DNA from: an uncultured Coriobacteriales bacterium | GTDB taxonomy: Bacteria > Actinomycetota > Coriobacteriia > Coriobacteriales > Atopobiaceae | Reading direction: 5' to 3' | DNA: 18,196 bases | NCBI GenBank assembly: GCA_947305035.1 | Contig: CAMZCV010000001.1 | Coordinates: 1 to 18,196, forward strand | Part shown: in pieces, positions 3,030-18,152 of the stretch | Layout of the letters: every line of letters starts with the position of its first letter | Position numbering within the stretch: the stretch's first letter is position 1 | The notes under the pieces: generated by a model | Told to the model about the DNA's origin: nothing | Databases searched by the model: none | Seen by the model: only the letters and a program-made list of their open reading frames with translations | Program-made: the position numbers and the translations under genes

Positions 3030-4096
3030 GACCAACCTCCCTTCAAATCGAGCGTCCACGTCCACGTCTTGAGGTCGAGCTGTGCGCTCGACACCTGCCA
3101 GCGCGTCCTCCTGTTGCCCTCGCACCAGCGCTCGACCATGCCATCGCGCAGCGGTCGGTACATCAGGCCGTGGCTGAGCGTCAGGCTCTCTGCGCTCGCG
3201 TCACCGAGCATCTGCCGCGCCTTTGCGGTCGCGGCGTCTGCGGTGAACGGGCTGAGGTCGCTCATCGTCTCGAACTTGTCGATGCCGTACCCTCGCACGG
3301 AGACGGATGCGTGGTCGCCGTCCGCGACCGTTGCGATGCCAGTCACCGACTTGTCCCCAGACTCGCTGCGCACGATGACGCGCGTCGGGTGCGAGAGCGC
3401 GTCGGTGTCGCCTGACGGCTCGCCGATGACGATGCCGCGCGGCGCGCTCGGGTCCACGTCGTAGTCGGGCTCCTTCTTCGACGGCTCGATGTAGCGCTCT
3501 ACGGCAACGAAGCCGTCTGGGTCCACGACGATGCGGTCCCCTGCCTTGTTGGCGACGTCCATGGCTATCGAGAGCCACGACTTGCCAGCGTCGTACACGC
3601 AGGCGCTGCCAAAGAGGTAGTCCGTCGCGTCGCCGCGCACCCTGAGCTGCCGTCCCGTCTGACGGGCGATGGAGCGGATGACGTCCAGCGCCTTCGCGCT
3701 CGCGGCCACCGTGTAGCCGTTCGCCGCGACGGTGCCCTTGCCGTCACCCTCCCACGCAATGAGCGTGCTTGACAGCGTGAGCCTGGTCATCATGCCGTCT
3801 CCGCGCCCGCTCCACGGGGCTGCGGTCACGTAGCCGGTGAACAGCGTCTCGCGCAGGAGCAGGCCCGTCCAGTCGCTGACGTCGTGGACGAGCCTTAGCG
3901 CGCTTGTGCCGTCCCAGCCATGTTCGCCGACGCATTCGAGCGATGCTCCTGCGCGCGTGTCGCTGTAGTAGCTGAGGTCGAGCTTGCCGCCCTTGACGTT
4001 GTGCAGCTCCCCGCGCACGTCGGTGAGGTTGGACGGGTCCACCTGCAGGACGGTGAGGGCGTGGCTGAGGTCGCCGCGCGCCCAGTCCACAGCCAT
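3026..4096 (-). CDS. Tail hub/baseplate minor tail protein
   Basis: This 356-residue protein lies after the lectin tail protein. Its layout matches hub-type minor tail proteins of actinobacterial siphophages. The first part has strands and a loop (DWTGLLLRETLFTGYVT). A middle follows with KALDVIRSIARQTGRQLRV and an inner-membrane-ring-like IVVDPDGFVAVERYIEP. A C-terminal part has helices (ATAKARQMLGDAS) and WTWTLDLKGGW at the end. Such proteins form the ring at the tail tip that the fibres attach to. No peptidase or lysozyme motif is visible. The ATG at 4096 is chosen because GGAGG lies 7 bases upstream, and it overlaps the previous stop (TGATG). GTG codons at 4099 and 4102 are too close to the ribosome site. 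Confidence 0.75.
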   Translation of the reverse strand: MAVDWARGDLSHALTVLQVDPSNLTDVRGELHNVKGGKLDLSYYSDTRAGASLECVGEHGWDGTSALRLVHDVSDWTGLLLRETLFTGYVTAAPWSGRGDGMMTRLTLSSTLIAWEGDGKGTVAANGYTVAASAKALDVIRSIARQTGRQLRVRGDATDYLFGSACVYDAGKSWLSIAMDVANKAGDRIVVDPDGFVAVERYIEPSKKEPDYDVDPSAPRGIVIGEPSGDTDALSHPTRVIVRSESGDKSVTGIATVADGDHASVSVRGYGIDKFETMSDLSPFTADAATAKARQMLGDASAESLTLSHGLMYRPLRDGMVERWCEGNRRTRWQVSSAQLDLKTWTWTLDLKGGWS

Positions 4097-5928
4097 CACC
4101 ACACCTCCTCGTCGAACGAAATCGACACCGACGCGATGCCAATGGCGTGCTTGGACAGGTCCACTTCGGCGCCCGTCACGAGCGCCTGCGCCCAGAAGCC
4201 GTTAGGCCCGCGGAAGTAGACGTGCCCAGCGTGAGCCGCCCAGTCGGCAAGCTCTATGCCGCTGTCAAGCGTCTGGCCGTGCAGCACGCCCTTGAGCGTC
4301 CAGCTCGCGGTCGTTGACGGCCCGAGAGAGTTGAGCTGTCGCTCGCGGCCCAGCACCTCGTGAGAGGACGTGGAGCGGGAGAACGACGGCGAGAACTCGG
4401 GCGGCTCGCCCGTGTTGTGGTACACCGCGAGGTCCCTGCTGAGGTCCTGTGACGTCACGTGATAGCCGCTGTCATGGATTGCATTGAACGTCTGGACCAC
4501 CGATGACCACGTGCCCGCGCTCGTGGCCGCGTAGAGCTTCCACTGGACGCCGAGCGGTGGCGCGATGACCCATGGGCTTGACCCTGCGACCTCGACGAAC
4601 CGCGTGCCGTGCCCGCGCGGGATGACCAGCCACAGGCGCGCCGCCGCGTTGCTTGCGGTGACGGTTGCCGTCGTGCCGCTGACGGTCGCAGACAGCGTGA
4701 GCCCGCTTGAGTGGCCGGACTCGTAGGAGAGCGTGATCGTCTCGGTGCGGCTCGCCGTGATTCCGTCTGGCGTCGTGAGCGTGACGGTGAGCTTCACGCT
4801 GTCGCCGCTGGCCACGCTCTTGACGAGCTGCCACATGGGGACGATGGAGCTTCCAGCCGCCGCGCCCGTCGTGTTGAGCGTGTCGAACGGAGCGGCCTTC
4901 GCCACGATGGCGTTTCCGCTCGTAGTCGCGTTGCTGGTCCACGAGACGGCAAGCCCGTCAGGCGCGATGGCCATGTCGATGTCGCTGATGCTGACCGCAC
5001 GAGCGGTCACGACGGTCCACGTGAGCGCGTCACCGTGTGCAGCCGCGCCGCTCATCCAGCCGCTGGTCCACTCGCGGACCGAGAACTCGACGTCGGTGCG
5101 GTCGTAGGTGCTTGAGTTGTCCACCGCGACGCCGTTGGATGACCAGAGACGGCCACCGGACGCTGTTGCCGTGCAGTTGCTCTGCCCGGGCGTCCCCCAG
5201 CCGTCCCATGTGGTCGCGCCGTCTGCGATTGACTTCCAATTGCTCCACGCGCCCATCGCCCCGCCAGCCGTGCGCCTGCGCGTGCGGTAGCGGAGCTGGA
5301 CGGTGGTCGCACGTCCGACCCAGCACGGGTAGACGGTGCCGCTGCCGATTGCGACGGCTCCCGTCTTGACCGTGCCGACGGTCGTGCCGCACGACCCAGA
5401 CGATGGCGTTGGAAGCACCATCAGCGAGTGGTCCGTGTCGGTCTTGGCGGCGAGCGTCGCAAGCCACTCCGTGGGCACGAGGACGAATCGCTGCGCGGCG
5501 CTGCCGTTTGACGTCCAAATCTGGATGTTGGTCTTGAGGTCGGTCTTGCCGCCTGCAACGTCGAGCACGTAGGTGGACGCGCCGAACGCGCCGATGCTCA
5601 CCACGGGATAGCTCGTGCCGTTGACGGCCTGCGTGCCCGTCTCCGTGATGGCCCACCGCTGGGCCGTGCTGCCGTTGGACGTGTAGAGCTGCACGTTGGT
5701 GCCCTTGGCCTGCGTGCCGCCAGCCACGTCGAGAGACTTGCCCGTCTCCGCGTCGATGATGGTCCAGTAGCCGCTCTGACTGGTGAGCGTCCACTTCTGG
5801 GCGTTGCTGCCGTTGCGCCCCCACACCTGCACGTTGGCCTTGTTGGCCACGCTGTTGTTGCTCACGTCGAGCGCCATGGTGACGTCCAGCAGCGGCAGGA
5901 TCTCGTAGGAGCCGCTAGCGATTGACAT
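4096..5928 (-). CDS. Minor tail protein with N-terminal ricin-type lectin domain
   Basis: This 610-residue protein follows the tape measure gene (TAATG overlap), where distal tail or first baseplate proteins lie. Residues 1-150 are a beta-trefoil lectin (ricin B/CBM13 type). Three repeats end in QxW-like motifs: NVQVWGRNGSNAQKW at about 32-46, NVQLYTSNGSTAQRW at 78-92, and NIQIWTSNGSAAQRF at 134-148. The middle has immunoglobulin/fibronectin-like strands. The last 170 residues (RQLNSLGPSTTASWTLKG, then HVYFRGPNGFWAQALVTGAEVD) look like the structural tail part. The lectin should bind host wall sugars. Calling the rest distal tail protein-like is inference from position. Confidence 0.82.
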   Translation of the reverse strand: MSIASGSYEILPLLDVTMALDVSNNSVANKANVQVWGRNGSNAQKWTLTSQSGYWTIIDAETGKSLDVAGGTQAKGTNVQLYTSNGSTAQRWAITETGTQAVNGTSYPVVSIGAFGASTYVLDVAGGKTDLKTNIQIWTSNGSAAQRFVLVPTEWLATLAAKTDTDHSLMVLPTPSSGSCGTTVGTVKTGAVAIGSGTVYPCWVGRATTVQLRYRTRRRTAGGAMGAWSNWKSIADGATTWDGWGTPGQSNCTATASGGRLWSSNGVAVDNSSTYDRTDVEFSVREWTSGWMSGAAAHGDALTWTVVTARAVSISDIDMAIAPDGLAVSWTSNATTSGNAIVAKAAPFDTLNTTGAAAGSSIVPMWQLVKSVASGDSVKLTVTLTTPDGITASRTETITLSYESGHSSGLTLSATVSGTTATVTASNAAARLWLVIPRGHGTRFVEVAGSSPWVIAPPLGVQWKLYAATSAGTWSSVVQTFNAIHDSGYHVTSQDLSRDLAVYHNTGEPPEFSPSFSRSTSSHEVLGRERQLNSLGPSTTASWTLKGVLHGQTLDSGIELADWAAHAGHVYFRGPNGFWAQALVTGAEVDLSKHAIGIASVSISFDEEVW

Positions 5929-8948: not shown

Positions 8949-9590
8949 TTAGTTGCCTGTGGTAGTGGTGGTCGTGGTGGTCGTGGTGCCGGTCTCTGTG
9001 CTCTCGTACCAGTCGTGGCAGCCGGAGCCAGACGAGTCGGTCTGGTAGGTCAGCGTGAGGTTGCGCTGTGCGGCAGTGGTGCTGTTGCCGGTGAACTCGC
9101 CGCGCGCGGTGACCTTGCAGATGGGGATGACCTTGCGCCAGCGACGGCCATTCTTGAGCACGAGGTCGAGGATGGCGATGCGCTCCTCGTCGCTGTTGGA
9201 CCAGTTGTGGTTGACGTCCAGCAGGCCGTTTGCGTCGGTGACGTTTGCGGAGCCGTAGTAGAGCCCCAGCGGCTCCTTGCGGGTCTCCATGAGCGTGATG
9301 CCCAGCGTCTCGGTGGTGGTGGACCCGTAGGTGTCCACGGTGTCACCGTTGATGTCGCTGAGCGTGTCGCTGGAGCGGTCCACGCCCTCGGTGAAGCCAT
9401 CGCCCGAGACGTAGCCCATGTTGGGGATGGCGTCGGGGATGGCGGTCGTGATCTTTGCGAGACCCGTCGCAGAGGTCAGGGTCTCAAGCGCGGCAATCGT
9501 GGTCGCGTTGCGGACGGCGCAGAAGAAGTAGCCGCCCTTGACGCCGCGAGTCGTGGAGACGTTCGCGGTGTTGTTGGTAGCCTGAGCCAT
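8949..9590 (-). CDS. Major tail (tube) protein with Thr10 C-terminal tail
   Basis: This 213-residue protein precedes the tail assembly chaperone pair, the fixed place of the tube subunit. It is beta-rich, starts with a flexible Asn/Thr-rich arm, and contains repeated strand segments (YFFCAVRNA, LGITLMETRKEP, RIAILDLVLKNGRRW, RNLTLTYQTD) as in siphovirus tube proteins. The ATG has AGGAGG 8 bases upstream. After the last strand the chain runs through a short acidic linker into exactly ten Thr and then Gly-Asn. This tail resembles the capsid protein's tail although the two proteins are otherwise unrelated. It should be displayed on the outside of the tube. Confidence 0.9.
   Translation of the reverse strand: MAQATNNTANVSTTRGVKGGYFFCAVRNATTIAALETLTSATGLAKITTAIPDAIPNMGYVSGDGFTEGVDRSSDTLSDINGDTVDTYGSTTTETLGITLMETRKEPLGLYYGSANVTDANGLLDVNHNWSNSDEERIAILDLVLKNGRRWRKVIPICKVTARGEFTGNSTTAAQRNLTLTYQTDSSGSGCHDWYESTETGTTTTTTTTTTGN
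8958..8987 (-). repeat. Ten-threonine codon repeat at the end of the major tail gene
   Basis: Ten consecutive Thr codons, mostly ACC and ACG with ACT and ACA near the end, precede Gly, Asn and TAA. The pattern, the count of ten and the following Gly-X-stop match the capsid gene repeat at 10984-11013. They share 23 identical bases. Confidence 0.97.
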
Positions 9591-9602
9591 GTTGTGGCCC
9601 TC

Positions 9603-9968
9603 CTATTCGATGTTGATGTAAAGGCGCATGGACGCGCGGTGGCGCCCACCTCGCGTGCTGAAGCTGTCGCGGCTTATCTCCACGACGCGCGCCTCGGAAA
9701 GAAGCGGATGGTCTGCTGCGGCGTCCTGCAGCACCTCGACGCACGAGCGCGCGAGCGCAGCAGCCGTCGCGTCCGTCTCCGCGCAGCACAGCAGCTCGAC
9801 GGTGGAAACCTGCAGAAAGGCGTCTGACTCGTCTGCGGTGTGCGACACGATGACGCGGCGCCCCTCACCCATCGCGGAGAGGGAGCCGTCCGAGAACTCC
9901 GTCGTGACCTCGACCGTGGGCAGGGACTCGGAGAGGATTGCCACGGCGAGCGCGGTCTCGTCCACCAT
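9603..9968 (-). CDS. Probable tail terminator protein
   Basis: This 121-residue protein lies just before the major tail gene, the standard place for the tail terminator that stops tube growth and joins tail to head. The alternating pattern fits an alpha/beta terminator-like fold. An N-terminal helix leads to a strand (PTVEVTTEF), a long strand segment (VSTVELLCCAE), a long helix (AALARSCVEVLQ), and a final strand ending SMRLYINIE. The ATG overlaps the previous stop (TGATG) with AGGGGG upstream. The family is not recognisable by motif, so the call is positional. Confidence 0.65.
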   Translation of the reverse strand: MVDETALAVAILSESLPTVEVTTEFSDGSLSAMGEGRRVIVSHTADESDAFLQVSTVELLCCAETDATAAALARSCVEVLQDAAADHPLLSEARVVEISRDSFSTRGGRHRASMRLYINIE

Positions 9969-10216
9969 CAGAACCCCCTAGCCCTCTGAAGCGGCCCGCC
10001 GTGCGCAGTGCCGCCGTCCTGCTTTGCAATCGCGTGGCAGCGCGTGCGGCCTTCGCGCACGTCGGCGCTGAACGTGGCGCCAAGAGACGTGTTCATTGAC
10101 GCGGCCTTGGTCGCAATCTGCTGTGCCTGCGAGAGGCACGTGCGCTTCACGCCGTCGCTGTTGCGCAGGGCGATGAAGCCTGCCGTGTCTGGCACGAAGC
10201 GAAAGTCACTGGCCAA
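9968..10216 (-). CDS. Small head-tail joining protein, possibly HK97 gp10-like
   Basis: This 82-residue protein is the second gene after the connector, where phages of this type encode a gp10-like joining protein. It has a short N-terminal strand region, a helix (LSQAQQIATKAASMN) and a strand (FSADVREGRTRCHAIAK). That strand-helix-strand order is common in this family, although it is shorter than usual. The start is TTG. A TGA lies in frame nine bases upstream and no ATG or GTG is available before residue 20. It overlaps the previous gene by eleven bases and the next by three. The function is inferred mainly from position. Confidence 0.6.
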   Translation of the reverse strand: MASDFRFVPDTAGFIALRNSDGVKRTCLSQAQQIATKAASMNTSLGATFSADVREGRTRCHAIAKQDGGTAHGGPLQRARGF

Positions 10217-10562
10217 TGCGCCTCACCGCCCTAATCCATGCGTTGTGAGGTCCCGGCACGCCCGTCGGGTCGTAGATGTGGCCCTCGGTCACGAGGTAGT
10301 CGTGGCCGCGCACGGTCACCTTGCAGCCCACAAACGGGCCGTCGCAGCCCTTTGGCAGGTAGAGCGGCACCGTCTCGACGATGCCGTCAGGGTGCCGCTC
10401 GCTTGCCTCCTGCTCCCACGCGAGGTCGCCAACGACAACGCCCCCGACCAGCTCTGAGTGGTCGAGGGCGTAGGTCACGGGCCTCTTGTTGCCGTAGGCG
10501 TCCCTCTCGCCGGGGACGATGGGATGCCAGATGCGCACTGACTCGGTGGGAGCGCTAATCAT
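10206..10562 (-). CDS. Head-tail joining (stopper-like) protein
   Basis: This is a beta-rich protein of about 118 residues with a small-barrel composition, for example GPFVGCKVTVRGHDYLVTEGHIYDPTG near residues 75-101, ending in AWIRAVRR. Its size, fold pattern and place directly after the connector fit the stopper proteins that seal the head after packaging. I do not recognise a specific family with certainty. The ATG start follows AGGTGA by 5 bases and overlaps the previous stop. The frame is open upstream only inside the neighbour. Confidence 0.7.
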   Translation of the reverse strand: MISAPTESVRIWHPIVPGERDAYGNKRPVTYALDHSELVGGVVVGDLAWEQEASERHPDGIVETVPLYLPKGCDGPFVGCKVTVRGHDYLVTEGHIYDPTGVPGPHNAWIRAVRRIGQ

Positions 10563-10941
10563 CGCCCTCACCTGCCAGCGCGCCGAACCCGATGCGCGCG
10601 CAGATGCCAAGCATCCTGCGCTCGGAGTCGAGCAGCTTTGGCGTCCCGTAGCCGCCCGTGAAGGTGAACTGCCTGTTGTACGGCCCCGTCGTGAGCGACA
10701 TCTGTGTGATGCCCACCGGAATGTCCGTGCCGCCGCTCGGCATGATGCGGTTGGCCATGGAGCGGCACACGCGCATGAGGCGGTCGGCGAACGACTCGGA
10801 CGGGCTGGTGTAGTCGATGCCGCGACGGTCCAGCTCAGCGTCGATGACGGCAGAGCAGTCGTCCAGACACTCCTGCAGCATCACGAGGTCTTCCACGTCG
10901 CCATAGCGCGCCTGATAGTCGGTAACGGTGGCATAGGACAC
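10555..10941 (-). CDS. Head-tail connector, Gp19/Gp15/Gp42-like adaptor
   Basis: This protein of about 128 residues follows the major capsid gene. It starts with a helical region (YATVTDYQARYG, then helices with DLVMLQECLDDCSAVIDAEL). The conserved PVGITQMSLTTGPYNRQFT segment near residues 75-93 is typical of the Gp19/Gp15/Gp42 family of head completion adaptors that bind under the portal. The start chosen is the GTG at 10941, 8 bases after AGGAGG. The GTG at 10950 falls inside that ribosome site and is unlikely. The end overlaps the next gene by eight bases. Confidence 0.82.
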   Translation of the reverse strand: MSYATVTDYQARYGDVEDLVMLQECLDDCSAVIDAELDRRGIDYTSPSESFADRLMRVCRSMANRIMPSGGTDIPVGITQMSLTTGPYNRQFTFTGGYGTPKLLDSERRMLGICARIGFGALAGEGDD

Positions 10942-10974
10942 GCCGACCACCTCCTATCTGGTTGCCTTGCGCTC

Positions 10975-11925
10975 CTACGCGCCAGTCGTGGTGGTCGTGG
11001 TGGTCGTGGTGGTGGCGGAGGGAGTGCTGCCGGTCAGCAGGACGATCTGCGTCTTGTCCATGACGGCGAACGCGACCTCGATCTCGAAGCGGACGGCGAA
11101 CATGTTCATCTGCCACAGGTTCAGCGTGTGGTCGCTGCCGTCGTTGTAGGTGAGGGTCGCCTGGTCGGAGACGGCCATCTGGATGCCCTCGACGCTGCCC
11201 CAGCGCACGCCGGAGAAGTCACCGGCGACGCCCACGACTGCGGGAGTGGAGCCAGCGGTGCCAGCGACGTAGACGCCCTTGGCAACGGCAACGTTGGAGC
11301 CGAGGATGTTGCCGACGGTGTTGGAGCCGACGCCAGCGGTGAACAGCGGGTGACCAGTCTGGTCGGTGGCACCGAGCACGATGCTCTTGCCCTGCGGGGC
11401 GAGCGCGATGCCGTTGAGGATGCCGTCGGCCTCGGCGATTGCGGCGTCGATGTCAACGAAGCGCTGGTAGACGGTCTTGCCATCTCCAGCGACGATGCTC
11501 TTGGTCTCAACGCCGGTGCCCAGCACGTCGAAGCCGGAGCCGGGGGCGGTGGAGGACATGATGGTCTGGTCGAACTTCTTGGAGAGGGCGGCGGGGAGAC
11601 GGCGGATGCACTCGGCGTACAGAGCGGCCTTGTCGCGCTTGAACTCCATGGAGAACGGCTCGATGATGGCGAGCTTGTACGGGGTGATGGTCTTGTTGCC
11701 GAAGGTGTGCTTGCCGACGGGCTTGGCGTTGGTCTCGTCAACCCAGTTGGCGGTCGGCTCGCCAGTGATGGTCTGGACCTTCACGCCGGAGCCAGGGATG
11801 CTGATGCGGTTGGCGAGCTGCATGAAGGCAGAGCTCTCGATGGCCTTTGCCCAGATCTCGCCCGAGACCTCGGGGTCGAGGATGACGTTGGAAGTGTGGC
11901 GGGAGATGTCCTGATAGGTGGGCAT
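10975..11925 (-). CDS. Major capsid protein, HK97-fold, with Thr10 C-terminal tail
   Basis: This 316-residue protein sits between scaffold and head-tail joining genes and has the pattern of HK97-fold coat proteins. The N-terminal arm (MPTYQDISRHT) leads to EVSGEIWAKAIESSAFMQLANRI-type helices. An E-loop-like TPYKLAIIEPFSMEF region and a late RWGSVEGIQM strand follow. The C-terminal MFAVRFEIEVAFAVMD matches the closing strand of the family. The ATG start has AAGGGA 6 bases upstream. There is no N-terminal delta/scaffold domain, consistent with a separate scaffold gene. Beyond the fold, the chain ends with a Ser/Thr/Pro linker, exactly ten Thr, then Gly-Ala. That tail is not part of the HK97 fold and would be solvent exposed. 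Confidence 0.93.
   Translation of the reverse strand: MPTYQDISRHTSNVILDPEVSGEIWAKAIESSAFMQLANRISIPGSGVKVQTITGEPTANWVDETNAKPVGKHTFGNKTITPYKLAIIEPFSMEFKRDKAALYAECIRRLPAALSKKFDQTIMSSTAPGSGFDVLGTGVETKSIVAGDGKTVYQRFVDIDAAIAEADGILNGIALAPQGKSIVLGATDQTGHPLFTAGVGSNTVGNILGSNVAVAKGVYVAGTAGSTPAVVGVAGDFSGVRWGSVEGIQMAVSDQATLTYNDGSDHTLNLWQMNMFAVRFEIEVAFAVMDKTQIVLLTGSTPSATTTTTTTTTTGA
10984..11013 (-). repeat. Ten-threonine codon repeat at the end of the capsid gene
   Basis: Ten consecutive Thr codons run as ACC ACC ACG three times and then ACT, followed by Gly, Ala and TAG. The trinucleotide pattern can expand or contract in frame. It shares a 23-base identical stretch with the repeat at 8958-8987 in the major tail gene. 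Confidence 0.97.
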
Positions 11926-11937
11926 TGCTGTCCCTTT

Positions 11938-12402
11938 CTACTGGCCCAGCACGGCGTCGATGAGTTCGCCGAATCGCTGGGAGTTGGTGATCTTTGGCGG
12001 CACGTTCGCGCCGCCGTCATCGGTGCGGGTCGGGTGGACCGGCATGAGCTTCAGCAGGCGCTTTGCCTGCTCGACCAGCTCGTCCGCGTCTGCGCCGTTG
12101 AGCATCTGCGCGACCTCCAGCGGGATGCCCGCCTTCTGCGCGGCTGCGCTCACGTCGGCGCTGCGCTGGGCGTCGGCCTTGAGCTGCGCAAGCTCTGCCT
12201 CTGCCTTGGCGGCGCGCTCTGCGGCCTCGCTGGCCTCCTTGCCGTCCACGTAGCCCTCGTACTTGCGCCGTTCCTTCTGTCGGGCGTCACCGACCAAGCG
12301 GTTGACCTCCTCCTGCGTGAACGTGCGCTCGCCAGACTGCGCAGCTGCGGCAGTCTGGTCGTTGGTGGTGCCCTCAGTTGCCTGAGTGTTGGTGTCGGCC
12401 AC
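11938..12402 (-). CDS. Capsid scaffolding protein
   Basis: This 154-residue protein has the make-up of phage scaffolds. It has a disordered Thr/Gln/Ala-rich N-terminus and a FTQEEVNRLV segment near residue 28 as in DUF4355-like scaffolds. A long charged coiled coil follows (about 35-85, rich in Lys, Glu and Ala). A C-terminal segment contains hydrophobic residues (FGELIDAVLG) that probably docks on the coat. It directly precedes the major capsid gene, 12 bases apart. The start chosen is GTG at 12402 with AGGAGG 5 bases upstream. The frame stays open to 12504 but that part crosses the terminator. Scaffolds direct coat assembly and leave or are degraded on maturation. Confidence 0.85.
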   Translation of the reverse strand: MADTNTQATEGTTNDQTAAAAQSGERTFTQEEVNRLVGDARQKERRKYEGYVDGKEASEAAERAAKAEAELAQLKADAQRSADVSAAAQKAGIPLEVAQMLNGADADELVEQAKRLLKLMPVHPTRTDDGGANVPPKITNSQRFGELIDAVLGQ

Positions 12403-12436
12403 GTCGGCCTCCTTTCCCTGCCCTAGCAGGTGTCGG

Positions 12437-12460
12437 TGCGGCGATTGACCGCCCGCCGCA
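12437..12460 (-). repeat. Inverted repeat in scaffold gene leader
   Basis: A perfect 7-base inverted repeat (TGCGGCG and CGCCGCA) is separated by 10 bases. It lies between the terminator and the scaffold ribosome site, in the only sizeable intergenic gap (12403-12519). On the mRNA it would form a GC-rich hairpin about 24 bases upstream of the AGGAGG. I see no convincing -10/-35 promoter in this gap. The repeat could be an operator, or an RNA hairpin that stabilises or processes the capsid transcript. Confidence 0.5.
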
Positions 12461-12473
12461 TTGCGTGGGTATG

Positions 12474-12494
12474 AAAAAAGCCCCTTTCGGGGCT
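12474..12494 (-). terminator. Rho-independent terminator before the scaffold gene
   Basis: Read on the minus strand, AGCCCC, a GAAA tetraloop and GGGGCT form a perfect six-pair stem followed at once by a run of T. This is a canonical intrinsic terminator. It lies 26 bases after the metallopeptidase gene and about 72 bases before the scaffold start. That is inside what otherwise looks like one late operon, so it probably attenuates transcription or marks a break between two transcripts. Confidence 0.85.
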
Positions 12495-12519
12495 GATTTC
12501 GCATTGATTGCTGTGGCCG

Positions 12520-12924
12520 TTAGCTGGCTATCCAGTCGACGCCCCAGCGGTCCACGCACTTCCGGAAGTCCTCCATGTCGTGCGGGACGATTGAGTAGAC
12601 CTCGTTGCCGTCCTTGTCCTCGCCGACGCCGACGTGCAGGAGCTCGTGGAACAGCAGGCGTCTCAGATGCTCGTCGTCCATGCCCTCGCAGTTTGGCTCG
12701 TAGACCACAATCAGGAAGTCGGCGGGGATGGCCCACTTGTTCTTGTCCGCAACGCGCTCGCACTCGCCGAAGACCGTACGGCCCTTTGAGCGCTTCGCGT
12801 TGTCGCTGCCGAGGCAGCAGATGGTGGCGTCGCTGTCGCGGATGTGCGCGAGCGAAGGCTCGGTGTCGACGAGCTGCTGCGCCAGCTCGGCGTAGTGCTC
12901 GCTGATATAGCGTGTCTCAGCCAT
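12520..12924 (-). CDS. Putative phage zinc metallopeptidase (HELLH)
   Basis: This 134-residue protein contains a zincin motif, LLFHELLHVG (HELLH at residues 93-97), followed by a GxxEDKDG turn and a later PHDMEDF segment whose His115 could be the third zinc ligand. The layout resembles the putative phage metallopeptidase family: about 90 N-terminal residues with a GECERV strand and an FLIVVYEP strand before the zinc helix. The ATG start has GGAGG 5 bases upstream and overlaps the preceding glycosyltransferase stop. The open frame continues upstream, but only inside that gene. It sits between the minor head region and scaffold, where many phages encode a head maturation protease. A terminator follows. 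The substrate is unknown. Confidence 0.78.
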   Translation of the reverse strand: MAETRYISEHYAELAQQLVDTEPSLAHIRDSDATICCLGSDNAKRSKGRTVFGECERVADKNKWAIPADFLIVVYEPNCEGMDDEHLRRLLFHELLHVGVGEDKDGNEVYSIVPHDMEDFRKCVDRWGVDWIAS

Positions 12925-13657
12925 TCCTGCCTCCATTGCATCGCTCTTCGTGCAGGCGCATGACCTCATCCCATGGCGTCTCGCGCCACTTGACCACGCG
13001 CGGGTCATCTGCCCAGCCATCGTGCGGCACTCCTGCGAAGTGGACAATCTTCGCGCCGGGAGCGTTCTTGTCCGTCCACCAGTTGCTGTTGTACTCGGAC
13101 GGCATGTCGTGGATGCGGCCCTGACAGAGGTAGTTGCTCACGTCCTGCTCGACCCACGTGTAGCGCCTGCGGTTGAGCACGTCGATGATTTCGTTTGCCT
13201 TGCCGTCGCGCAGCTTCTTGAGGTTGTAGAGCGTCACGCCCGCGTTGCAGTAAAGCAGGCCGTTCTCGCTCTTGTGCCACTCGTGGGACGCGCTGTAGTA
13301 GCAGTCATCGATGGGCATGTCCCACACGCCGCTCACGTCATCGACGCACACGGTGTCGGCGTCCAGCGAGAGGACCTTGTTGACGCGCGGCAGAACGTGG
13401 CAGAGCGCCAGACGCATCATGGCCATGTAGGTGAAGCCGCTCGACATGTTCGGCCCGTCAGGCGCGAAGAACGTCTGGCCACTCGCGTCGTGGAGCTGGA
13501 TGATGGACGGCAGCTCGGTCGGGAACTCCGCGTCCTCGATGACGAAGTGGACCACGTCCACGTCGCTCATGGCGACGAGTGACTTGGCCGCTGTCTCCAT
13601 GTCGCCGTAGATGTTGCGCGTGCCGCAGAAGGCGGCGTGCTTCTTCGCCCTAGCCAC
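12917..13657 (-). CDS. Glycosyltransferase family 8-like protein
   Basis: This 246-residue protein matches the retaining GT8 pattern (glycogenin and LPS galactosyl/glucosyltransferases). It has a DxD metal site in LSLDADTVCV (DAD at 99-101), YCNAGVTLYNL near 136-145, EQD at 170-172, YNSNWW near 189 and a C-terminal IVHFAG near 204-209. These are the usual nucleotide-sugar, Mn2+ and acceptor elements, so the active site looks intact. The start is GTG, 6 bases after a GGGAGG site, inside the end of the preceding glycosyltransferase. There is no signal peptide or membrane segment. The gene lies within the head module, coupled on both sides, so it should be expressed with capsid genes. Modification of capsid and tail proteins is inferred, not shown. 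Confidence 0.88.
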   Translation of the reverse strand: MARAKKHAAFCGTRNIYGDMETAAKSLVAMSDVDVVHFVIEDAEFPTELPSIIQLHDASGQTFFAPDGPNMSSGFTYMAMMRLALCHVLPRVNKVLSLDADTVCVDDVSGVWDMPIDDCYYSASHEWHKSENGLLYCNAGVTLYNLKKLRDGKANEIIDVLNRRRYTWVEQDVSNYLCQGRIHDMPSEYNSNWWTDKNAPGAKIVHFAGVPHDGWADDPRVVKWRETPWDEVMRLHEERCNGGRNG

Positions 13658-14297
13658 GCAGCACCTCCCTGAACTCGTGCCCGCACGACACGCGCGGGTC
13701 TGCCACGATCGTGAAACCCGCGTTGGTCACGAGGTTGCAGAAGTTGATGTCCTCGCCGCCAGACTGGAATGCGTCGTGGCACGAGTAGGCGTCCTCCTTG
13801 TCGAGGGCCGTGCGGGAGAGGTCCGTCCACTCGAACCACGGGAACGGCAGGAATCGGAACAGGTCGGCGCTGATGAGCGCGCAGCCCATGCCGCCGCCCT
13901 TCACGCGGACCTCTGTCGTGCCGGCGTCCCGCATCTCACGCAGCTCTGCCGCGTCGTACATGTCCCAGCCATCGCCGAGACGGTAGAGGCATGTCAGTCG
14001 CTTCTCGCCGCGCGCATAGCGGTTGAGGTAGTAGCCGAGCACAACAGGCGCGTCATGCTCAAGCAGGTTCGCCAGCGCGTCGCTCGGCAGGTCTATGTCG
14101 TTGTCCACCATGAGCACTCGGTCGTAGCGGGCGTTAAGCGCGTCTGCCGCGATGCGGTTGCGGGCCATCGCGCAGCCGTAGCCCTGGCGCGGCTTGTAGT
14201 CCACCTCGTGGCCGCAGCGGTCGAGCCGCCACAGGCTCTGAGAGGTTGCCTGCGAGATTCGGCCGTCGTAGGTCGGGACTTCGATAAGTATGCGCAC
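13650..14297 (-). CDS. Glycosyltransferase, GT-A fold (GT2-like)
   Basis: This 215-residue protein has GT-A fold landmarks. They are an N-terminal strand (RILIEVPTYDG) and an ARNRIA segment near residue 45. A metal-binding DxD (VDNDID, DND at 65-67), a GGGMGCALI acceptor-side strand near 134 and GGEDINFC near 180 follow. The last two resemble the ED motif of family 2-like enzymes that transfer a sugar from a nucleotide-sugar. The GTG start has a GGGAGG site four bases upstream and follows the minor head stop by one base. No membrane segment is visible, so it should act in the cytoplasm. It overlaps the next glycosyltransferase by eight bases, so the two are probably made together. Donor and acceptor cannot be read from sequence. 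Virion proteins are the likeliest acceptor given the context. Confidence 0.85.
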   Translation of the reverse strand: MRILIEVPTYDGRISQATSQSLWRLDRCGHEVDYKPRQGYGCAMARNRIAADALNARYDRVLMVDNDIDLPSDALANLLEHDAPVVLGYYLNRYARGEKRLTCLYRLGDGWDMYDAAELREMRDAGTTEVRVKGGGMGCALISADLFRFLPFPWFEWTDLSRTALDKEDAYSCHDAFQSGGEDINFCNLVTNAGFTIVADPRVSCGHEFREVLRG

Positions 14298-14298
14298 G

Positions 14299-15087
14299 CT
14301 ACCTCCCTGCTGACTTGCGTCTGACGGCGATGCTCTTCTTCCTGTCGCGCACGTTCTGCTCGTGCTGCGAGTGGTCCATGTCCAGCCATGCCTGATATCC
14401 GGCGTCGTAGTCGCGCGGGTTGTAGCCCTCGACGCTTCCCGGTCCCCAGCTCGGTACGACCATGCACTGACAGCCGTTGTGGTAGTGGTTCGGGTCCACG
14501 CCGCCAGCGGTCAGCTTCGAGAGGTACGCAAATCCGCGGCTTGCTAGCATCTGGCAGAACGGGCATCCGTTCGGGTAGCTCTTGGAGCCGCGCGGAATCC
14601 TTGCGAACAGGACCTCGCGCGGGTCGCGCCTGCCGTTCTCGAACACGGTGTTGCCAGCGGCCTCGCGGATGCCGCGACCGAAGTAATCGACCAGCATGGA
14701 CTCGACGCGGCCATACGCCTCGGCAAGAAGCTGGTCCTCTGCCGTCGCGGCGCCGTCCAGCTCTGCGAGCGGCGACACGGACGCCCTCACGACCTGCTCG
14801 ACGTCCACAGGCTCGTAGCCGTCCATGAGCACCGTGTCGATGCCCTCGCCGACCATCCGCCTGCGCATTCCGTCGTAGAACTCTGCGGCGAGCTGTGCGG
14901 CGCTTGACCTCGACTGGTAGCACACGGGCTGCATGACCTCGATGAGCTGGTTGCGCACGTCGGCAACGGGAGCTGAGTAGTCCACCCTTGCGAGCGCTTC
15001 CTTGAGCACGGAGCGCATGTGATCGTCGATGTTCTGCAGCGAGTCGGCGTAGCCGTCAATCCACGCGCGCGGGACGGTGCTACTCAT
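14299..15087 (-). CDS. Minor head protein, VG15/MuF-like
   Basis: This 262-residue protein follows the portal gene and overlaps its stop (start ATGAGTAG). The C-terminal part carries a cysteine/histidine cluster, CPFC at residues about 175-178 and H-x-H-x-x-C-x-C at about 201-208. That is characteristic of VG15/MuF-type minor capsid proteins of actinobacterial phages and probably binds zinc. The N-terminal half is helical, as expected for a portal-associated internal head protein. The last 20 residues are strongly basic (RDRKK and RRK), suggesting contact with DNA or the scaffold. Family members sit inside the prohead near the portal and may be ejected with DNA. The exact role here is inferred. 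Confidence 0.85.
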   Translation of the reverse strand: MSSTVPRAWIDGYADSLQNIDDHMRSVLKEALARVDYSAPVADVRNQLIEVMQPVCYQSRSSAAQLAAEFYDGMRRRMVGEGIDTVLMDGYEPVDVEQVVRASVSPLAELDGAATAEDQLLAEAYGRVESMLVDYFGRGIREAAGNTVFENGRRDPREVLFARIPRGSKSYPNGCPFCQMLASRGFAYLSKLTAGGVDPNHYHNGCQCMVVPSWGPGSVEGYNPRDYDAGYQAWLDMDHSQHEQNVRDRKKSIAVRRKSAGR

Positions 15088-16519
15088 TGTTTCCGCCGAA
15101 GATGGCCTGCGCCATGGCAGCGCTCGCCTCGCGCGTCTCGTCGCTCTTGACGCTATCGAGGTCCGCGTCATCGATGCCGACCATGCGGGCAGCAACGTCG
15201 GTCTTGCCGAAGCCAGGGCGCACGCTCTCGACCTTCGTCACCCAGTCTGCACGGGCTGCGTCGGAGAACAGCATCGGCTTTGCGAACTTCGCGCGGATGC
15301 CCAGCGCGCCCTCGTCCAGCCTGTCGGTGGTGGTGTTGCCCTGCACGGCGAGCGCCGCGCGGATGACGCGCTCAAGCGTCCGCTTGTCCTGCTCGATGTC
15401 GCGGTTGGCGATGAGGCAGATGTCCTCGCGCGCTGCACCGATGGCCTCGGCGCTGCTCGGGTTGTCCTGCACGATACCGAGCGAGTTGAGCGGCACGCCA
15501 GTCGCACCGCTGAACTGCGCGGCGAGAGCTCGAAGCTCGTCCACGAACGGCTGCGGGGAGTTTCCGCTGAACTGCTGGATGTCCGTGCGGCTCTCGCCGC
15601 TCTCGTCAACCTCGGTAGCGAGCACGCGGTCCATCTGGTACTTGAGCTTGTCGTTGACCACGGCCTCGTACTGCTCGGGCAGGAGGTTGAGCATGGCGAG
15701 CTTCGGCACCGAGTAGTAGGCGCCCGAAATCTGCATGTGCCACATGCAGCGGATAGCGTCATCGGTGAGCGTGCGCACGAACTGCGTGATGCGAGTCCTG
15801 CCAAAGGCGTTGAGCGTGCCCGTTCCGTCATGCACGAAAACGTATAAACTCGGCTCCTGCTCGGGCGTGAACCCGTCATCGGCTTTCCACTCGCCAGCGG
15901 CCACCTGCCGGAGCTGCACGACGTTGCCGGGCAGGTGCAGGTTGACGATGGTCGGCACCATCCGCCCTGCGCTCCATGGCGTCAGCTCCTGACGCGCGAT
16001 GGCGAGCCCTGCGCCCACCACGCCGTCCTTGCCGTCAGGGGACGGGATGGCCGTGAAGGTCTCGGCGCTGTGGAAGCGCACGACGGCATCGCCGGGCTGG
16101 TTGCGCGTGACTGTCGCGGCCATGCAGCCGTAGAGCAGCTTGGGCACGAGGTGGCGGTTGTAGCCGCCGATGACGTTGTTGCGGTCGAGGATGCCGTCCA
16201 GCGTCGCTCGGTCGTAGCCGTCGGGCGCGTTGAAGCGCTCAAGCGTGATGCGGTCTGCCAGCGCGTCCACGGCCTTCGCGGGCCAGTGGCAAGTCTGGTC
16301 GTTGGGCACGTCGGCCTTGCTGCCGTAGTCGGACACCTTGACCTTGCCGTCGTAGTAGCGGCGCAGGTCGGTGTTGTGCGCGACGTGCCTGCCGTACTCG
16401 TCCACGAGGTGCTGCGCCCACGCGCGCGTCTCGCCCGAAAGCCCCGACGCGTTCGTGATGCCGCTCAAGTCGACCATGCCCATGCGCATTGGTCGGAAAG
16501 TGTCGGGCTGCTCCATCAT
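15080..16519 (-). CDS. Phage portal protein, SPP1 Gp6-like
   Basis: This protein of about 479 residues should form the dodecameric ring at the capsid vertex through which DNA enters and leaves. Features typical of the SPP1 Gp6-like portal family are the N-terminal DLRRYYDGK segment and WPAKAVDALADRI near residue 75. A C-terminal half with VPLNSLGIVQDNPSSAEAI and a following long helix also fits. Its place between large terminase and minor head protein is standard. The start is the first of two adjacent ATG codons, 5 bases after a GGGAGG ribosome site. It overlaps the terminase stop by four bases. The gene ends by overlapping the next gene's ATG. Confidence 0.93.
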   Translation of the reverse strand: MMEQPDTFRPMRMGMVDLSGITNASGLSGETRAWAQHLVDEYGRHVAHNTDLRRYYDGKVKVSDYGSKADVPNDQTCHWPAKAVDALADRITLERFNAPDGYDRATLDGILDRNNVIGGYNRHLVPKLLYGCMAATVTRNQPGDAVVRFHSAETFTAIPSPDGKDGVVGAGLAIARQELTPWSAGRMVPTIVNLHLPGNVVQLRQVAAGEWKADDGFTPEQEPSLYVFVHDGTGTLNAFGRTRITQFVRTLTDDAIRCMWHMQISGAYYSVPKLAMLNLLPEQYEAVVNDKLKYQMDRVLATEVDESGESRTDIQQFSGNSPQPFVDELRALAAQFSGATGVPLNSLGIVQDNPSSAEAIGAAREDICLIANRDIEQDKRTLERVIRAALAVQGNTTTDRLDEGALGIRAKFAKPMLFSDAARADWVTKVESVRPGFGKTDVAARMVGIDDADLDSVKSDETREASAAMAQAIFGGNNE

Positions 16520-17943
16520 CCAATCCTCCCTCTGCGCTTTGGGTCGCGCTTCGTGGTCCGCGCCGCCCACAGGGCCAGCGCGCAGGCGTCCAGCCGCTCG
16601 GGGCACTCGCCGCCGAACCCGTAGCCGCCATCCTTGCCTATCGGGCGCCTCGTCGCGCCCAGAGCGCTCTCTGTGAGCGCGGGGTCATCCAAGTGCGTGA
16701 GCGTGCCGTCGTTGATGGCGTTGACGAGCATCGCGTCTGCCGCGATGGCGTCGGCGGTGCGAGCGACCATGACGGCGCCCTTTGGCATGCCCGCGCCGAC
16801 AAGCTGCTGGCCAAGGTCCGTCGCGTCGGCGCGACCGTCGATTGCGACCGCAGCCGCGCGTCCCTTGCGCGCGACGATCCAGTCCACGAGCCACGCGACG
16901 CCCGAGACGGTCGGCTCCGTGCGGACGAACTCCACGTGGCATCCGTCCGCGTGCGTCACTGCCGCGGCAAGCGTGACGCTGCGCCCGTCTGGCGTGAAGC
17001 GCACGCCATAGGCGAGCTTGCTCACCTCTCGCGGCGCGTGGGCGGTCTTTGTCGCGTTCCAGCTCATCGACGTGATGAGGAAGTCAGCGACGCGCATGCT
17101 CGGGTTCCATCTGCCCAGGTACTCGCGCGCGAAGCTGTCGGGCTTCATCACGTAGCTGTCGATGGCGTCGAGCATGACGTCCTCGCGGATGCGGTACCCG
17201 AGCGCCGGGTTCGTGCGGTACGCAAGCTCAAGCGCGTGCGCTCGGTCCGTGAGGTTCGGCACCTCGTCAACAGACCACTCAAGCCACCACATCGAGCCAG
17301 CCTTGCCAGCGTGCGCCGCCTCGTGGTAGTCGGCGAACACGTCGCCGCTGCACTTCTCGTTCGGCGGCGTGCCGACGAAAATCATCTGCGGGTCGCCTGA
17401 CTCCGACGCGAGCGTTGTGGGCTTGATGGCGTCGAGCTGGTCGTAGGTAAGCTCCTGTGCCTCGTCGATCACGATCACGTCGTAGGTCTCGCCGCGCGCG
17501 CCGCTGTTGGTGCGTGTCTGGAACTCGATGCATCCGCCGTTCGTGAAGTAGACGCCCTCTGTGCCAGCAGCGCGGTAGATGCTCTTGACGCGACGCGCGA
17601 GGTCTGGCGTGCCGCTGCACTCGTCGCTGATGAACTTGAACATCTTGCGCACGGTCGAGCCGTTGTGCGCGGAGTAGAGGACGTGCTTGCCCTTCGCCGC
17701 CATCGTGATTGCGTACTTGCGTGCGCCGAAGCTCTTGCCGTTCTGGCGCGGCTTGCTGATGCAGATGGTCCGTGACGCGAAGCGCCCCTCGTGGTCGCGT
17801 GCCATGAACAGCGTAAGCTCGTGGCGCTGGCACGGGTAGAAGTGCGTGCCCCATCCCTCGAACACGTCGCACAGGCGCTCGCCCGAGCTGTGGTGGTAGG
17901 GACCTACCGTGTTGAACGTCGGCTCTTGGTTGCCGTACCTCAC
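16516..17943 (-). CDS. terL: Phage terminase large subunit (packaging ATPase/nuclease)
   Basis: This is the motor that pumps phage DNA into the prohead and cuts it. The 475-residue protein has a Walker A-like loop (KPRQNGKS, residues about 64-71), a Walker B with catalytic Glu (VIVIDEAQ, about 156-163) and a coupling motif (FVGTPP, about 189-194). The C-terminal half holds Asp residues fitting the RNase H-like nuclease, for example AIDGRAD and ERLDACALALW near the end. The chosen start is a GTG overlapping the stop of the preceding gene (GTGA). The open frame extends ten codons further upstream, but that stretch lies inside the small subunit gene. The length is normal for the family. The gene overlaps the portal gene by four bases. 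Confidence 0.96.
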   Translation of the reverse strand: MRYGNQEPTFNTVGPYHHSSGERLCDVFEGWGTHFYPCQRHELTLFMARDHEGRFASRTICISKPRQNGKSFGARKYAITMAAKGKHVLYSAHNGSTVRKMFKFISDECSGTPDLARRVKSIYRAAGTEGVYFTNGGCIEFQTRTNSGARGETYDVIVIDEAQELTYDQLDAIKPTTLASESGDPQMIFVGTPPNEKCSGDVFADYHEAAHAGKAGSMWWLEWSVDEVPNLTDRAHALELAYRTNPALGYRIREDVMLDAIDSYVMKPDSFAREYLGRWNPSMRVADFLITSMSWNATKTAHAPREVSKLAYGVRFTPDGRSVTLAAAVTHADGCHVEFVRTEPTVSGVAWLVDWIVARKGRAAAVAIDGRADATDLGQQLVGAGMPKGAVMVARTADAIAADAMLVNAINDGTLTHLDDPALTESALGATRRPIGKDGGYGFGGECPERLDACALALWAARTTKRDPKRRGRIG

Positions 17944-18152
17944 AGCTCGTCCAGCACCTGGTCGAAGTCGCACATCTCCTCGTCGGGGTCGCCGATTGCC
18001 TCAATCTCGTCCATGACCTCCATGAGACGCTTTGAGAGCGATGCCATGTCGCGTCCACTCTCGCATGTCTGGATTGTCCTGGCGATTGCGTCTCTCAGCG
18101 CGATCAATGTGTCTCTCTTGCTCCCAGAAGCTGCTGCATCAACGAGATTCAT
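17940..18152 (-). CDS. Probable terminase small subunit
   Basis: This 70-residue, mostly helical, charged protein starts at an ATG with a GGAGG ribosome site 7 bases upstream. It lies directly before the large terminase gene and overlaps it by four bases (GTGA). That position, the small size and the helical pattern (Leu-rich N-terminal helix from about residue 12, acidic C-terminus) fit the short small terminase subunits of actinobacterial siphophages. These recognise the packaging site and regulate the large subunit. I see no clear helix-turn-helix motif, so the role rests mainly on position. It is the first gene of the visible operon. An alternative is an uncharacterised leader protein. Confidence 0.6.
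   Translation of the reverse strand: MNLVDAAASGSKRDTLIALRDAIARTIQTCESGRDMASLSKRLMEVMDEIEAIGDPDEEMCDFDQVLDEL

Follow-up and report, generated by a model that had tools for sequence, protein, structure and literature searches.

We analyzed an 18,196-nt window of DNA (64.7% GC), a single contig from the 1.66-Mb metagenome assembly G000 of an uncultured Coriobacteriales bacterium (339 contigs, 68.75% complete), which carries a phage structural region on its minus strand. In this region, the major capsid protein (MCP) and the major tail (tail-tube) protein (MTP) both end in a tag of ten threonines, and two glycosyltransferase genes lie among the head genes. Tags and enzymes occur together in related head modules, and the type of tag is the same on both proteins wherever both are tagged. 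These sequence patterns make it likely, in our judgment, that the tags are acceptors for virion O-glycosylation, in which the head-module glycosyltransferases would modify the C-termini of the capsid and tail-tube proteins.

The MCP (10975–11925, minus strand; 316 aa) belongs to the HK97-type family (PF05065 Phage_capsid, 1.4e-20; phrog_10, 7.6e-38) and ends in TPSA-T10-GA, with the Thr run at 10984–11013 on the same strand followed by Gly, Ala and the stop codon. The MTP (8949–9590, minus strand; 213 aa; PF25681 Phage_TTP_17, 2.1e-9; phrog_117, 8.2e-26) ends in STETG-T10-GN, with the run at 8958–8987, also on the minus strand, followed by Gly, Asn and the stop codon. The original prediction of a ten-Thr run closed by Gly and one further residue on both proteins was therefore confirmed. 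These were the only runs of at least six Thr in a six-frame translation of the window, and both were coded by mixed Thr codons (ACC, ACG, ACA, ACT). A frame artefact was considered and rejected, as both open reading frames (ORFs) encode structural proteins recognized by Pfam and PHROG. As a rule in tailed phages, the MCP and MTP are the most abundant virion proteins.

Among 120 of 1692 MCP homologs listed, which include the window's own cluster, 52 had a tail of four or more Thr that closed with GA (47), GE (4) or GD (1), indicating that the Thr tail is not a chance feature; the run length among them ranged from 4 to 10. Two MTP homologs, the window's own and P0206, had at least four terminal Thr among 120 of 676 listed. 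The MCP tag was added beyond TPSA, the usual end of the family (alignment A7), and in the predicted MCP structure residues 301–316 were without secondary structure, with a mean predicted local distance difference test score (pLDDT) of 65 for residues 301–310 and 43 for 311–316. At the position of the MTP tag, the alignment showed an empty C-terminus in some relatives, while others carry an additional domain there (PF12733, PF02037 or PF07498). Such extra domains are displayed on phage surfaces.

The two enzymes occupy a slot between the gene of the VG15/head maturation protein upstream (14299–15195, minus strand; PF25310, 6.1e-39; phrog_13257) and that of the scaffolding protein downstream (11938–12504, minus strand; PF14265, 1.4e-6; phrog_233). 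The first (12917–13657, minus strand) is a GT8 glycosyltransferase (PF01501, 1.8e-14; 54.4 bits against a cut-off of 24.3), whose profile matched LgtC (1g9r) and the GT8 enzyme 5gvv. Its DxD motif (D99/D101) and a C-terminal His (H206) were invariant in the 12 rows of alignment A3, in agreement with the earlier claim of a GT8-like enzyme with an intact DxD site in the head module. The second (13650–14297, minus strand) had been called GT2-like with an intact DxD site. The DxD motif (D65/D67) was indeed intact and, like ED, invariant in the 15 rows of alignment A2, whereas the assignment to a typical GT2 did not hold: no Pfam GT2-type model reached its cut-off for this protein (Anp1, the best match at 0.0012, 18.8 bits against 28.8; Glyco_transf_21, 12.9 against 21.7), and PHROG 1574, which it matched, is of unknown function. 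The profile of alignment A2 matched A197 of Sulfolobus turreted icosahedral virus (STIV) and yeast Mnn9 in the Protein Data Bank (2c0n, 2.7e-7, and 3zf8, 3.3e-6). The AlphaFold model (mean pLDDT 87) gave 2c0n as the top Foldseek match (1.8e-10), followed by the collagen galactosyltransferase COLGALT1, an unnamed glycosyltransferase, LH3, Mnn9, mimivirus R699 and ppGalNAc-transferases; several of these (COLGALT1, LH3 and the ppGalNAc-transferases) act on proteins. By profile and predicted model, the protein is a small glycosyltransferase of the GT-A fold that resembles STIV A197 and Mnn9 more than it does an ordinary GT2. The two genes share an 8-base overlap, GTGGCTAG, and this overlap suggests coupled translation of the two enzymes. 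The span 8949–13657 to which the pair had originally been assigned contains the GT8 gene, whereas the second gene reaches outside it. When the window's GT-A protein was compared with genome contigs, it was found at two loci with the enzyme pair (L149 and L150), both in Coriobacteriaceae metagenome-assembled genomes of the RUG series, a name that we take to denote rumen.

The association between tags and enzymes was examined in loci fetched with two alignments, one of portal proteins and one of capsid proteins from a second group (MCP2). Neither query requires tails or enzymes, and the seeds of both contained tagged or enzyme-bearing loci as well as loci of the other kind. From 112 loci examined, 25 were dropped for lack of a complete MCP and 16 for lack of upstream coverage, and MCPs at least 97% identical were merged, which left 59 units. 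An enzyme was scored as present if it lay between the portal/VG15 genes and the MCP gene and was detected by the GT-A or GT8 profile, a procedure that other enzyme types in the modules scored as enzyme-free would escape; PF00535 and PF01501 were negative in the records of five loci (L188, L190, L192, L198 and L223). Tags were of three types: poly-Thr; Ser3-Gly (SSSG; L236, L245, L277); and Gly-x-Thr (xTG; L022, L279, L170, L161). The MCP was tagged in 12 of the 13 enzyme-bearing modules (9 poly-Thr, 2 SSSG, 1 xTG) and in none of the 46 enzyme-free modules (Fisher p = 1.2e-11, with units treated as independent). The thirteenth enzyme-bearing unit, L199, had an untagged MCP and an MTP ending in Thr10-GA. 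Counted alone, poly-Thr was present in 9/13 units with enzyme versus 0/46 without (Fisher p = 5.7e-8, likewise with units as independent). The groups also separated by the count of Ser plus Thr in the last ten residues, a measure free of any tag definition (MCP, p = 1e-6; MTP, p = 1e-5).

Loci found via enzyme or tail scans were added to form a wider set of 92 units, which gave 18/19 tagged with enzyme versus 0/52 without; the other 21 units could not be scored. A search with the MCP in 140 genomes of the window's family found a match in 17; the loci were short, and several were unsuitable for scoring. As supporting evidence only, a blind search for twin tails found them at 22 of 64 enzyme loci and 15 of 232 others, in counts that comprise unmerged duplicates and many short loci. 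Five loci (L033, L070, L073, L084 and L119) each encoded at least two proteins with a common C-terminal motif like SNGHGGL. This group accounted for one of the 22 (L119, which also matched the GT-A profile) and four of the 15; the remaining 11 non-enzyme loci were mostly Thr-tailed, with enzymes not found or the slot uncovered.

The tag types of the two proteins agreed. Both proteins were complete in 59 units of the wider set: neither was tagged in 40, both in 16, the MCP alone with Thr in two and the MTP alone with Thr in one. The same type was found on the MCP and MTP in all 16 doubly tagged units (11 poly-Thr, of which two, L047 and L148, came from the tail-pattern scan; 3 SSSG; 2 xTG). The agreement spans three capsid groups and three tail groups; the MCP and MCP3 groups match different PHROG major head families, and MCP2 matches none. 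In L022, both proteins end in SSGSTGITGA.

Two pairs of close relatives differed in their tags. The MTPs of L236 and L251 are identical at 179 of 194 aligned residues, including the last ~70 residues of the core, after which the former ends in SASSSGVAGA and the latter in ETTTTTTGA. Each agrees with its own MCP, which ends in SASSSGVVGA in L236 and in ASATTTGA in L251. The enzymes differ as well: L236 encodes a GT8 fused to a glycerophosphotransferase, and L251 the same fusion plus an A197-like enzyme. Judged from sequence, this pair is the best natural experiment for a tail tag that differs with the enzyme set. The MTPs of the window and L171 are identical at 183 of 204 residues; the window's is tagged and accompanied by the enzymes, whereas that of L171 is bare and no enzymes were found. 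The Thr10 tag of the MTP was likewise absent in L028, where the enzymes were not found.

These results are consistent with a mechanism in which the two glycosyltransferases would be made together with the head proteins and would put sugar on the flexible C-termini of the MCP, hence on the shell surface, and of the MTP. The A197/Mnn9-like enzyme probably adds the first sugar to Thr, since it was found with Thr or xTG tags in several modules without a detected GT8 (L265, L260, L199, L202, L022 and L170). The GT8 enzyme would probably extend that sugar and, in modules with GT8 alone, start on the Ser-rich tag: where GT8 was found without a detected A197-like enzyme, only SSSG tags occurred (L236 and L245), and where both enzymes were present, the tags were Thr or xTG. 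This enzyme-to-tag pattern comprises few cases, and at the short loci L260, L170 and L161 a further enzyme could be cut off. The original proposal that one enzyme starts the glycan and the other extends it is possible for the window, and a pair is not needed everywhere, given the modules with Thr tags in which no GT8 was found. Its suggestion that the Thr10 tails are O-glycosylation sites fits the finding that the tails belong with the enzymes in this head-module group, although Thr10 proved to be one of at least three interchangeable tag types.

The number of independent events was assessed on trees. A portal tree comprised 61 units, after 10 of the 71 scorable units were left out with no usable portal. 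On it, enzyme and tag each changed 11 times, and the independent pairs were concordant in 10 of 10 cases (p = 0.002). Inclusion of the tail of L188, described below, lowered the mean concordance from 10.0 to 9.7 out of 10. On the MCP tree and the MTP tree alike, enzyme and tag each changed four times; the three supported pairs of the MTP tree were all concordant.

Several observations weigh against glycosylation of the tags by the head-module enzymes. On the portal tree, poly-Thr alone was concordant in 7.5 of 10 pairs on average, with no difference in 2.5 (p = 0.016), and both traits showed a single change on the MCP2 core tree. The enzyme slot and the MCP gene lie within one or two genes of each other and can therefore be transferred together, so that the portal tree gives too high a count of independent events, which are fewer than the units. 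Therefore, the case rests more on the MTP, whose gene is separate and further downstream, and on the matching of tag types than on the portal tree. The three MTP groups are themselves probably distant relatives of one another, since all touch phrog_117, one weakly; the xTG and SSSG classes were defined only after the data had been seen; and the match of the second enzyme to protein-acting transferases stays at the level of the fold and leaves its acceptor unfixed.

Individual cases also depart from the pattern. L150 carries the enzymes and a tagged MCP, yet its MTP is untagged, and L102/L280 combines a tagged MCP2 and a bare MTP, with the enzyme slot off the contig. The tail protein of L188, of a fourth group outside the profiles used and hence outside the 59- and 92-unit counts, ends in AGTTTTGN, although the record, 8.3 kb long, yielded no enzyme. 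Tag and enzyme are both missing from the sister loci L190 and L192. Thr tails were also found in other phages by a pattern scan of IMG/VR, among the matches listed. In 18 Thr-tailed records searched together with five others, PF00535 was found in three (one below the cut-off) and PF01501 in none. Record G151 (L289), a low-GC phage, has Thr tails on both the MCP (phrog_10) and the MTP (phrog_88) and neither PF00535 nor PF01501, and no glycosyltransferase was seen among 25 of 44 Pfam families listed from a scan of 28 of its 46 ORFs. Conversely, the pattern T4-Gly-[Ala/Asp/Glu]-stop, the only one searched, was found in 0/12 records of GT8 relatives outside a recognized head module; these represent 12 of the 15 GT8 relatives, six of the records are shorter than 8 kb, and the pattern would miss other tag types. 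The co-occurrence in relatives that the original prediction had proposed as a check was thus observed within the group, whereas outside it both Thr tails without a glycosyltransferase and GT8 without the tail pattern were seen. Because of phages of the G151 type, a tag is no proof of a phage glycosyltransferase everywhere; there, host enzymes could serve or the tail could have another use. Record G145 (L292), also a low-GC phage, has Thr-rich tails on two structural proteins, and PF00535 and PF01501 were not found in it. G155 (L293/L294) encodes three Thr-tailed proteins, one a major tail protein by PHROG, together with GT6 and sugar-nucleotide enzymes of the GDP-mannose dehydratase/epimerase type; from its sequence it is a possible independent case with another glycosyltransferase family.

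An alternative is that the enzymes modify something else, such as sugars of the host's wall or surface, or the DNA of the phage, while the tags have another job and the genes travel together by adjacency. The linkage of enzyme and MCP genes, the single change of both traits on the MCP2 tree and the 12 GT8 relatives whose records lack the tail pattern would all be expected if this were so. The MTP gene, however, lies a step further off (1.4 kb from the MCP gene in the window) and its products fall into three sequence groups, yet it carries the capsid's tag type in every doubly tagged unit, and in L236 and L251, whose MTPs share an identical C-terminal core, the tail tag differs along with the enzyme set. 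We regard this explanation as unlikely. Two candidate roles were set aside: host-serotype conversion enzymes, against which the head-module slot and the co-occurrence with tags argue, and DNA glucosylation, which would predict no link to the tags. It is about as unlikely, if marginally more so, that the tags serve unmodified, as flexible or sticky tails, acting as a spacer or as a hydrogen-bonding or mucus-binding peptide with no need of sugar. G151 and the tail protein of L188 would fit such tails, whereas the absence of tagged MCPs from the enzyme-free modules of the group would not; moreover, Ser-rich and Gly-x-Thr tags replace poly-Thr on both proteins together, which an acceptor code predicts better than a single stickiness does.

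The Thr runs might also be by-products of repeat slippage that were spread between genes by recombination. The DNA of the runs is a near-perfect 9-bp repeat, and the variable run length of the Thr-tailed MCP homologs would suit this origin. Nevertheless, the mixed Thr codons vary between phages, in 52/52 of the Thr-tailed MCP homologs listed the run stands at the C-terminus with Gly and a single residue after it, the SSSG and xTG tags behave alike without being such repeats, and no Thr tail occurs among the 46 enzyme-free MCPs. Slippage is accordingly a very improbable source of the tags.

A third enzyme, a CDP-glycerol glycerophosphotransferase (PF04464), was found in part of the tagged modules. 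The domain is fused to GT8 in L245 (4399–6096), L236 (3572–5518) and L251 (5647–7335) and lies beside glycosyltransferase genes in L022, L202 and L279, all tagged modules, with match strengths from 3.7e-25 to 1.1e-40. A profile search added the enzyme in units L205, L257 and L277 and found it in 0/46 enzyme-free units; PF04464 was not among the matches of the ten window proteins scanned. In the Thr-tagged phage L205 (3327–4301), the enzyme is split over two adjacent ORFs and may be a broken gene. Similar domains were seen near GT8 in L014, L015, L016 and L019, outside a recognized head module. Teichoic acid enzymes of the TagB/TagF type act on wall polymers. They are glycerophosphotransferases with the same PF04464 domain, and here we infer a virion acceptor instead. 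If active on the same acceptor as the glycosyltransferases, the enzyme would give virions that carry glycerol phosphate, and the fusions hint that the coat might bear phosphate. We tentatively propose, while rather doubting it as a whole, a modular glycan code in which short, interchangeable C-terminal tags (poly-Thr, Gly-x-Thr, Ser3-Gly) are gained jointly by capsid and tail tube, each type being read by a matching enzyme set in one slot of the head module, and in which, in a subset, the fusion of GT8 and glycerophosphotransferase caps the glycan to form a teichoic-acid-like coat imitating the Gram-positive wall.

Comparable systems are known. Freeman et al. in 2023 are said to have found that the C-terminal virion glycans of phages Che8, Corndog and Myrna are O-linked. 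The GT8 enzyme 5gvv is reported to extend the O-glycans of a Ser-rich adhesin. Among tailed phages, glycosylated virions have been described in a few mycobacteriophages, in which phage-encoded glycosyltransferases modify the C-termini of capsid and tail-tube proteins (PMC12619734, PMC12363180), and immune effects of the modification are also described (PMC12619734); the original prediction had mentioned such glycosylated capsids and tail tubes. The window shares with this type a phage-encoded glycosyltransferase, recognized by Pfam, profile and fold. The matching Ser/Thr tags at the C-termini of its MCP and MTP are candidate modification sites. It differs from the mycobacteriophage type in that the candidate acceptor can be seen in the sequence as a homopolymer or repeat tag, common to both proteins and of several types. 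In Che8, the enzyme is gp110 and the head genes are gp1 to gp6, whereas here the enzymes lie inside the head module; the Che8 MCP and MTP end in FNKTGS and YSDGS, with no Thr run. Searches with tblastn (E = 1e-5) of 50,697 phage records found no match for GT8, and 16 records, none of a mycobacteriophage, matched the GT-A enzyme. As Che8 was among the records, close homology of either enzyme to that of Che8 is excluded at the sequence level, and a remote homology is possible. The system would work like the mycobacteriophage one, to which it is linked by analogy.

Of solved structures, STIV A197 is the nearest to the GT-A enzyme by profile and fold. It too is a small single-domain viral glycosyltransferase, described as essential in the part of the source consulted, which also reports glycosylation of the STIV capsid protein, B345 (PMC10551542). 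The differences are that STIV is a double jelly-roll archaeal virus, that the acceptor of A197 is unproven and that the same text describes no C-terminal Thr tag (PMC10551542). LgtC and 5gvv share with the window's GT8 enzyme the Pfam family, the DxD motif and the conserved C-terminal His, and differ in that the gene here lies in a phage head module. To the ppGalNAc-transferases of mucin-type O-glycosylation, which add GalNAc to Ser or Thr, the GT-A enzyme is similar at the fold level. The best phage-record match of the GT-A enzyme (32%) was the archaeal virus vir323, in which no Thr tags were found on the 12 proteins examined; at its locus (L248, 7381–9520) the GT-A relative adjoins two collagen-like tail proteins, reminiscent of the Gly-x-Thr tags. 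A literature search, with most subscription journals outside its scope, found no paper on poly-Thr tags or on fusions of GT8 and glycerophosphotransferase in phage head modules.

If the tags are indeed acceptors, the rule of tag plus enzyme would predict glycosylated virions from sequence. The phages concerned infect bacteria of gut and rumen and may encounter the mucus and immune defenses of animals. For O-glycosylation in bacteria, the tags would then offer minimal acceptor sequences of natural origin. That those of the window's phage play a role in mucus or immunity, or bring any other benefit, would be a guess.

The remaining genes of the structural region, all on the minus strand, are in keeping with a phage head and tail module. 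Profiles identified the terminase large subunit (16516–17973; phrog_9, 3.2e-43), the portal protein (15080–16606; phrog_104, 1.4e-64), a tail terminator and, between GT8 and the scaffolding protein, a putative phage metallopeptidase (12520–13047; PF18894, 2.2e-25), for which the label transposase carried by PHROG 513 looks wrong; the connectors, chaperone, tape measure and remaining tail genes were named by position and size. A tail protein (4096–5928) starts with ricin-type beta-trefoil lectin repeats (PF14200, 1.5e-27), and because of these repeats the virion may also bind sugars, either the host's or those of sister virions; profile matches of this protein were found in L028, L206, L209, L211 and L215. 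Three further contigs of assembly G000 (C89, C11 and C152; L002, L003 and L004) carry pieces of related head modules, and a search for these enzymes found none there; L003, the one with a complete MCP, has an untagged MCP. Near the end of the window, at 433–1006, are arrays of a 42-bp imperfect repeat.

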